Source: Kordiimonas sp. (GTDB lineage Bacteria; Pseudomonadota; Alphaproteobacteria; Sphingomonadales; Emcibacteraceae). Taken from it: a DNA stretch of 64,000 nucleotides. Under the pieces are notes generated by a model. That model saw only the letters and a program-made list of their open reading frames with translations, was not told where the DNA came from and searched no databases. This document shows, piece by piece, positions 53,887-56,766 of the stretch (the first letter of the stretch is position 1; every line of letters begins with the position of its first letter). The translations under genes and the position numbers were made by a program. The DNA lies in contig PADB01000010.1 in the NCBI GenBank assembly GCA_002700365.1, positions 358,504 through 422,503 of the forward strand. Direction: 5' to 3'.

Positions 53887-55155
53887 ATGAGCAGTGACCG
53901 TGCCATCCAAACCATAATGGAAACCATTGGTGCCGATGCCAAAGCCGCCGCAGCCATCCTTGCCAACGCCCGCACCACACAAAAGAATGATGCATTGATT
54001 GCAGCGGCCACAGCAATCCGCGCAAAGAAGGCTGAAATTCTTCAGGCGAATGTTAAGGATCTGGATATTGCCCGTGGCCGCGACCTTAGTCAGGCAATGA
54101 TTGACCGACTATTGCTGGATGATGACCGCATCGAAGCAATCGCCTCAGGATTAGAAGCGATTGCCACACTCCCCGACCCTGTGGGCGACACGATCGCCAG
54201 TTGGGATCGTCCCAATGGACTGAATATTTCCCGCATTCGTGTCCCTTTAGGGGTCATTGGTATCATTTACGAATCCCGTCCAAATGTTACGGCTGATGCT
54301 GGTGCTTTATGCCTGAAATCCGGCAATGCCTCTATTTTGCGTGGCGGTTCGGAAAGCGCAAATTCCAGCCGCGCCATTCATCTTTGCCTTGTTGAAGGCT
54401 TAAAAGCAGCGGGGCTGCCTGAAACAGCGATACAGCTTATCCCAACACAGGATCGTGCCGCCGTAGGAGCCCTGCTCGGCATGGCTGGTATTGTTGATAT
54501 TATTGTGCCCCGTGGTGGCAAAGGCCTGATTGAGCGCGTTCAGAATGACAGTAAGGTCCCTGTCATGGCGCATCTTGATGGTATCTGTCACACCTATGTT
54601 GATAAAGCCGCCGACCCGCAAAAAGCGGTAGATATCGTCGTCAATGCCAAAATGCGTCGCACGGGTATTTGCGGAGCCACAGAAACCTTGTTGATTGACC
54701 ACAATGTCGTCGCCGACCTGCTGCCGGCCATTGCGGATGCCCTGATTGAAAAAGGCTGCGCGCTACGTGGTGACAAAACGGCCCAACAGCAACACAATGC
54801 CATTTCTCCAGCTACTGAAGAAGATTGGGACACAGAATATCTGGATGCCATTCTATCTATTCGGACAGTCGCCGGCGTTGATGATGCGATTGCCCATATT
54901 GCCCGTCATGGTTCACATCACACCGATGCGATCATTACGGAAGACGCTGAGGCGGCGGCAAAATTCCTCAACCAGGTCGACAGTGCTATCGTCGTACACA
55001 ATGCCTCCACACAATATGCAGATGGGGGCGAATTTGGCATGGGTGCGGAAATCGGTATTTCCACTGGCAAAATGCACGCGCGTGGCCCGGTCGGGTTAGA
55101 GCAATTGACCAGCTATAAATATGTTGTGCGCGGCAACGGCCAGACCCGCCCCTAG
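53887..55155 (+). CDS. proA: Gamma-glutamyl phosphate reductase
   Basis: NADPH-dependent reduction of glutamyl phosphate to glutamate semialdehyde. 422 residues of the aldehyde dehydrogenase superfamily. Motifs: [58 protein letters not shown], the catalytic Cys in [15 protein letters not shown], and the terminal [25 protein letters not shown] precedes the ATG. Functional partner of proB just upstream. Confidence 0.97.
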
Positions 55156-55184: not shown

Positions 55185-56276
55185 ATGTCTCCTACTCCCT
55201 CTTCACAGACATATACGTCACTGTCCGCCACAAAAGGCATTAAACGGTGGCGGGGCGTGGGGCGTTGGGCAGGTCTGCGTATAGGAATTTTGGGTGGTTC
55301 TTTTAATCCGGCCCATGATGGCCACCGCCATATCAGCCTCGAAGCCCTGCGGCGGTTAAAGCTGGATTATATCTGGTGGCTGGTCAGCCCACAAAATCCG
55401 CTTAAATCGACCGCGGGCATGTCGCCTTTTAACCAGCGGTTACGTCAGGCCCGCCATGTGGCGCGTCATCCGCGCATTATTGTTACGGATTTGGAACAAC
55501 AGCTCGGCAGCCAATATAGTGCCGAAACCATGGCCCATATCACCCGACAATATCCACATACGCGTTTTGTCTGGATGATGGGCGCAGATAACCTCGAAAG
55601 TCTGCATCTCTGGCATCAATGGCAGAAACTGGTTAACACAGTTCCGTTTGCGATTTTCGACCGTCCCCAGTATTCTATGAGAAGTGTCACTGGTAAGGCC
55701 GCGCGGCGATTGATGACCCATCGCCTACCTGAAAGAAAGGCTTCTCAGCTTGCTGACGAAACCGCGCCCGCATGGGTTTTCTTTCACATCGTTCGCAATC
55801 CTTTGTCAGCAACACAAATACGCCGTGATATCGCTACCGTCCATAAAGATGGCCAGCAAAACAACTGTGAGGAAAACGCCCCCGTGCAAACCGTTAAGGA
55901 GTCCCGAACGATTAATACGTCCGCACAAACAACATCCGCCTCAGTCCCCGCGCTGATCTTATCCATTTTGGAAGATTACAAAGCAGAAGAAATCGTCCAA
56001 ATCGACCTTAAAGATAAAACATCCATCGCCGATGTCATGATTATCGCCAACGGCACATCGCAGCGTCAGGTCAGTGCTTTAGCAAATTACATTACCCAAG
56101 GCCTGAAAGAAGCCGGCCATGCGGCCCCCAAGGTCGAAGGACTGGCCCAGTCAGACTGGGTCCTTATAGATGCCGGGGATGTTATCGTGCATTTATTCCG
56201 TCCCGAAGTGAGGGAGTTCTACAATCTGGAAAAAATGTGGATGGCAGATTTCACCCCTGACAAAGCTATGAATTAG
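55185..56276 (+). CDS. nadD-rsfS: NadD-RsfS fusion: nicotinate mononucleotide adenylyltransferase plus ribosomal silencing factor
   Basis: One uninterrupted frame of 363 residues. Residues about 30-215 are NadD: IGILGGSFNPAHDGHRHIS (HxGH nucleotide-binding motif), WLVSPQNPLKS, FVWMMGADNLESLHLW and the end RNPLSATQIRRDIA. After a polar linker (about 216-245), residues about 246-350 are RsfS: LILSILEDYKAEEIVQIDL, VMIIANGTSQRQVSALANYI, GLAQSDWVLIDAGDVIVHLF and FYNLEKMW. The two are normally separate adjacent genes. An in-frame GTG near 55885, with GAGGA upstream, could also start RsfS alone. NadD makes NAD precursor; RsfS binds L14 and blocks subunit joining. Confidence 0.9.
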   Translation: MSPTPSSQTYTSLSATKGIKRWRGVGRWAGLRIGILGGSFNPAHDGHRHISLEALRRLKLDYIWWLVSPQNPLKSTAGMSPFNQRLRQARHVARHPRIIVTDLEQQLGSQYSAETMAHITRQYPHTRFVWMMGADNLESLHLWHQWQKLVNTVPFAIFDRPQYSMRSVTGKAARRLMTHRLPERKASQLADETAPAWVFFHIVRNPLSATQIRRDIATVHKDGQQNNCEENAPVQTVKESRTINTSAQTTSASVPALILSILEDYKAEEIVQIDLKDKTSIADVMIIANGTSQRQVSALANYITQGLKEAGHAAPKVEGLAQSDWVLIDAGDVIVHLFRPEVREFYNLEKMWMADFTPDKAMN

Positions 56277-56307: not shown

Positions 56308-56766
56308 ATGCGAATCACTCTTCTCGCAGTCGGTAAAATCCGCAACACACCAGAAGCCGCATTGGTCGATACCTATGTCTCTCGCCTCCCTTGGCCCACA
56401 AACATTGTCGAGGTCGAAGAACGCCGCCCTATCAAAGGCCCGGAGAGACAATCCCGTGAAGGGCAATTATTACTGAAAGCCATCCCCAAGGGGGCCTTTG
56501 TCATCGCACTGGACGAACGTGGAAAGTCTTTACGCAGCGAAGCGTTTGCGGACAAAATACGTCAATGGCAGGACATGGGCTATGAACAGTTAGTCTTTAT
56601 GATTGGCGGGGCGGATGGTTTCTCGCAAGAAATCCGCGAACGTGCCGATTTGCATATATCTCTCAGCCAGATGACATGGCCACATATGATGGTACGCGCC
56701 ATGTTGGCAGAACAGCTATACCGTGCATCAACCATTATATCAGGCCACCCCTACCATAAAGACTAA
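56308..56766 (+). CDS. rlmH: 23S rRNA pseudouridine-1915 N3-methyltransferase
   Basis: SPOUT-class enzyme that methylates helix 69 of 23S rRNA. 152 residues. MRITLLAVGKIRNTPEAAL opening, the cofactor knot with VIALDERGKSLRSEAFA, FMIGGADGFSQEIRERAD and the end LSQMTWPHMMVRAMLAEQLYRA, all characteristic of RlmH. AAGG lies 7 bases before the ATG. Follows nadD-rsfS in the usual order. Confidence 0.97.
   Translation: MRITLLAVGKIRNTPEAALVDTYVSRLPWPTNIVEVEERRPIKGPERQSREGQLLLKAIPKGAFVIALDERGKSLRSEAFADKIRQWQDMGYEQLVFMIGGADGFSQEIRERADLHISLSQMTWPHMMVRAMLAEQLYRASTIISGHPYHKD

Follow-up and report, generated by a model that had tools for sequence, protein, structure and literature searches.

A NadD-YbeB fusion protein, YbeB being the same protein as RsfS, was tabulated for Wolinella succinogenes in a 2011 comparative-genomics paper (BMC Genomics 12 Suppl 1:S2; PMC3223725). 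In that paper, the NadD-YbeB fusion was assayed for NAD cleavage and pyrophosphatase and had neither activity (PMC3223725). The W. succinogenes protein combines the two families that we describe here, named in the same order; it comes from a different phylum, however, and the likeness is at the level of its description, which mentions no internal start (PMC3223725). In Reyranella, NadD-RsfS proteins share with our locus the order of the domains, a short polar linker, and a Shine-Dalgarno site inside that linker. Yet the Reyranella fusion is fixed in the genus, has ATC or ATT instead of GTG as its start candidate, and is of separate origin. The long-form NadD family NF005519 (PRK07152; 361 amino acids) likewise consists of NadD with a long C-terminal extension, which we take to be a fusion to the neighboring YqeK. 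Finally, infC, the gene for IF3, is the classic example of a gene with a non-AUG start and carries an AUH codon after a Shine-Dalgarno site, whereas the favored start candidate of the rsfS examined here is GTG. NadD-RsfS fusions thus form a recurrent kind, already on record and of several origins, and ours is no unique case.

The fused frame and its genomic context

We analyzed a stretch of 64,000 nucleotides, referred to below as the window; all coordinates are positions on its + strand. Positions 55185 to 56276 form a single open reading frame of 363 codons that starts with ATG, has no internal stop, and would encode a protein of 41.1 kDa. Its N-terminal part is a complete NadD (about residues 31 to 216; 55275 to 55832), and its C-terminal part is a complete RsfS (about residues 256 to 355; 55950 to 56249). 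The protein scores 267.6 bits with NF000843, a curated equivalog for NadD (cut-off, 240), and 129.5 with the NadD profile TIGR00482 (cut-off, 112.45). It reaches 118.6 with the RsfS equivalog TIGR00090 (cut-off, 56.9), with residues 257 to 352 covering positions 4 to 99 of the 99 in the profile, and 112 bits with PF02410 (RsfS). With NF005519, in contrast, only the NadD part matched (90 against a cut-off of 315), the extra domain here being RsfS. The nucleotidyltransferase motifs of NadD are intact in the translation, HxGH as HDGH (within GGSFNPAHDGH) and SATxIR as SATQIR, and so is the conserved C-terminal half of RsfS. Solved structures of NadD and RsfS each align to their respective half, the RsfS alignment spanning the whole domain. 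At the sequence level, the protein belongs with the NadD-YbeB fusions, since both domains lie in one uninterrupted frame with NadD first. An earlier note on this DNA had placed NadD and RsfS in one stop-free frame; the open 363-codon frame and the completeness of both domains bear this out, and the fused frame is confirmed as real in the window sequence. The start of NadD is uncertain within 55185 to 55274: ATG 55185 has a weak Shine-Dalgarno pairing (-1.2), and that of GTG 55257 is better (-5.1).

The genome (2.4 Mb in 12 contigs) has its only NadD and its only RsfS in this frame. No second RsfS was found in it, and a candidate second nadD was rejected, the other PF01467 match being CoaD. The order of the operon around the fusion is obg-proB-proA-nadD-rsfS-rlmH, with proA at 53887 to 55155 and rlmH at 56308 to 56766. 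This is the usual alphaproteobacterial context, and an annotated Rhizobium record has the same neighbor order, proB-proA-nadD-rsfS-rlmH. On plasmids, nadD and rsfS occurred only as ordinary separate genes among the matches inspected. A search for other genomes of the genus returned none, the genus being known from this one genome. The assembly was scored as 100% complete, yet it yielded no 16S rRNA match and may be a metagenome-assembled genome.

Probable stop loss and the linker in the window's family

The nearest relative, G001, belongs to another genus of the same family and has the same layout, but with one in-frame TAG between the two genes. Its NadD ends in ...SATAIREKSLYSERL-TAG, and this TAG sits between GAGAGG and the GTG of rsfS. 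Across the family, nadD and rsfS are neighbors, and the spacing between them ranges from roughly -8 to 27 nt. The earlier note had proposed looking for the same fusion in relatives, and we found it: 3 of 31 family relatives (G016, G019, and G022, from two other genera) have no stop between the genes, and all three keep a GTG or TTG 24 to 25 codons before the RsfS domain. On a tree built from NadD and RsfS, the fused state changes four times, at least three of these changes being forced by well-supported branches. Fusions have come and gone among close relatives in this family, and the simplest reading of the sequences would be repeated loss of the stop where nadD and rsfS share a frame and lie almost without a gap.

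The comparison also indicates what the linker is. All 29 family relatives with a readable locus have GTG or TTG 24 to 25 codons before the RsfS domain, and the corresponding GTG of the window lies 22 codons before it; the linker must therefore be mostly old sequence. It comprises 17 codons of NadD tail and former intergenic spacer (55833 to 55883, delimited by comparison with family relatives, including G001), followed by the native N-terminal tail of RsfS. The polar linker of 30 residues described previously does join the domains, but it is largely made of these two tails and is not new sequence.

A base error in sequencing or assembly could in principle hide the nadD stop, in which case the two proteins would really be separate. 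The single genome of the genus, the missing 16S match with its hint of a metagenome-assembled genome, and the TAG of G001 all lean toward such an error. On the other hand, read-through is also present in unrelated assemblies, including the single-contig genomes G124 and G254 and 56 Reyranella genomes; moreover, the fused frame requires no frameshift, and both flanking domains are clean. We consider a base error very unlikely.

A candidate internal start of rsfS

The earlier note had pointed to an in-frame GTG preceded by GAGGA near 55868 to 55887 and suggested that it may allow free RsfS. Both elements are there: GAGGA occupies 55869 to 55873, 10 nt 5' of the GTG at 55884 to 55886, and the position of GTG or TTG in the 29 readable relatives lends support to the suggestion. 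A second Shine-Dalgarno-like site, AAGGAG (55896 to 55901), lies 9 nt before an in-frame ATT (55911 to 55913), an alternative, noncanonical start candidate. Duplex energies were calculated with a generic anti-Shine-Dalgarno sequence, since the assembly gave no 16S rRNA; on this basis, GAGGA with GTG 55884 is of moderate strength at -5.6 kcal/mol, a value that 14% of NTG codons lying in frame inside genes of the window equal or beat, and AAGGAG with ATT 55911 reaches -7.7 kcal/mol, which makes it the stronger site.

Initiation at ATT 55911 instead of GTG 55884 would make free RsfS depend on an infC-like start. Besides its stronger pairing, this candidate has a register similar to that of AUH start candidates in many alphaproteobacterial families, an AGGAG and ATT are present in G001 too, and infC of the same genome has GGAG-N7-ATA. 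Yet the family relatives conserve GTG or TTG nine or more codons further upstream, and AGGAG can stem from conserved Gln/Lys-Glu codons, for which relatives show CAA GAG. An infC-like start is thus not what we find for this rsfS, in which GTG holds the register conserved in the family, although AAGGAG with ATT also exists; we regard ATT as the less likely candidate of the two. Internal initiation at the retained GTG 55884 is likely because this codon has been kept in the conserved register. Judging from these comparisons, free RsfS of about 13 to 14 kDa is probably made besides the fusion: 130 amino acids and 14.4 kDa are predicted from GTG 55884, and 121 amino acids and 13.3 kDa from ATT 55911. 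The first value replaces the approximately 12 kDa given earlier.

We propose, with reasonable confidence, that a tightly packed, same-frame pair lost the nadD stop but kept the start of rsfS inside, and that the fusion has been tolerated and not favored by selection as a new link. Translation of nadD must enter rsfS because no stop lies between them; ribosomes would go on across the former spacer and then the N-terminal tail that RsfS already had, yielding a 41-kDa NadD-RsfS protein. Free RsfS would come from the internal start, most likely GTG 55884 after GAGGA and possibly ATT 55911 after AAGGAG. Each half would be expected to keep its usual job, NadD adenylylating NaMN and RsfS binding uL14 and blocking subunit joining. 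The polar linker would merely join the domains, and the fusion would be tolerated at least in the lineage of the window. Loss of the nadD stop could then recur without removing rsfS, and the locus would be a natural example of a single frame that probably gives two products.

Fusions and candidate non-AUG rsfS starts across the Alphaproteobacteria

In a class-wide sample of 384 other genomes, at least 11 gave a single stop-free match through both domains; this count is a minimum because it overlooks split alignments, for example that of G421. These genomes are spread over six further families (f21, f73, f87, f89, f124, and f172). In Reyranella, an unbroken NadD-RsfS fusion is present in 56 of 61 genomes and is fixed in the genus (loci L164 to L193, L204, L205, and L213 to L242). 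The linkers of these fusions keep an internal AAAGGA, read as the codons AAA-GGA, in 55 of 56 distinct sequences, counts that are not independent given their shared ancestry. In the rest of the same fused genes, AAA encodes 12% of the lysines and GGA 2.6% of the glycines. That codons so rare elsewhere are nonetheless kept here indicates a constraint at the nucleotide level and not only on amino acids. Six nucleotides past AAAGGA, nearly all linkers have ATC (or ATT). The conservation of these elements suggests that the Reyranella linker contains a functional ribosome-binding site, for which the evidence is better than at our locus. In the fusions at two loci of f124, L162 and L163, the linker is protein-like and conserved (RQRGGVVVGGQAP), and no internal start is evident.

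The fusion might alternatively be obligate and selected, so that only the 41-kDa protein is made; it would then bring NAD synthesis to the large ribosomal subunit or make silencing answer to NaMN, ATP, or NAD. Fixation in Reyranella, occurrence in several families, and the open linkers of L162 and L163 fit such a model, and we regard the latter two as candidates for obligate fusion. In some lineages, as Reyranella and f124 suggest, there may be a use for the fused protein as such. In the window's family, however, the four changes of state among close relatives and the internal starts that have been kept argue against it, as does the nucleotide-level conservation of AAAGGA in Reyranella itself. 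The lack of NAD cleavage and pyrophosphatase activity in the NadD-YbeB fusion might be set against it as well, although that result has no direct bearing on an obligate model (PMC3223725). For the window, we consider obligate fusion unlikely. The related idea, raised in the earlier note, of a tie between NAD synthesis and ribosome silencing through the fusion found no support here beyond adjacency: nadD and rsfS are neighbors anyway, and the fusion state is unstable among close relatives. The same assay result likewise gives this tie no support (PMC3223725).

We sampled 95 genomes, one per alphaproteobacterial family (loci L246 to L339). The strongest Shine-Dalgarno-like site 5' of the RsfS domain was picked by a simple word score, blind to codons, and the codons at start spacing were then read; about a quarter of the families had no such site. 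In the RsfS frame, AUA, AUU, AUC, or CUG stood at start spacing in 39 of 72 cases; the two remaining frames together had such a codon in 12 of 144 (Fisher P = 3e-13), the off-frame rate giving about 6 in-frame matches expected by chance. At the same sites in the RsfS frame, ATG was found 10 times and GTG or TTG 5 times. In 28 of the 95 genomes, the stretch 5 to 44 codons ahead of the RsfS domain, or as far back as the closest stop in frame, has no canonical start. Loci L034 to L113 likewise often lack ATG, GTG, and TTG at rsfS and show AUA, AUU, AUC, or CUG in frame behind a Shine-Dalgarno site. The downstream rlmH in the same sample has mostly ATG (42 at the aligned position, with 10 GTG and 4 TTG). 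Sister genera of Reyranella, in which rsfS does not share the frame of nadD, have no ATG, GTG, or TTG 4 to 45 codons before the RsfS domain; at the aligned rsfS position, they carry GGAG-ATCGCC-ATT or a similar site. The infC of the window's own genome, which served as positive control, showed its GGAG-N7-ATA.

In Escherichia coli, the start codon of rsfS is UUG (PMC10917681). For noncanonical rsfS starts, our search of the open-license literature found only this UUG and no report of AUU or AUA. From the sampled sequences, rsfS appears to be another gene, after infC, in which non-AUG starts are widely conserved among Alphaproteobacteria. We tentatively suggest, as a possibility somewhat short of even, that alphaproteobacterial rsfS has been selected for a non-AUG start (AUA, AUU, AUC, CUG, GUG, or UUG), as infC has, tying RsfS output to IF3 or initiation stringency. 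Fused genes would then give constant NadD-RsfS plus regulated free RsfS through a start gated at initiation. Control of rsfS by IF3 is offered as a hypothesis only, by analogy with infC. If the suggestion is correct, expression of rsfS, which encodes a subunit anti-association factor, may sense initiation stringency as with infC, and many annotated N termini of alphaproteobacterial RsfS would be wrong. In the window's own genome, infC (contig C3; L340, about positions 1436 to 1462) appears to start with ATA (ATA GCT AAA AGA CCA), not AUU.
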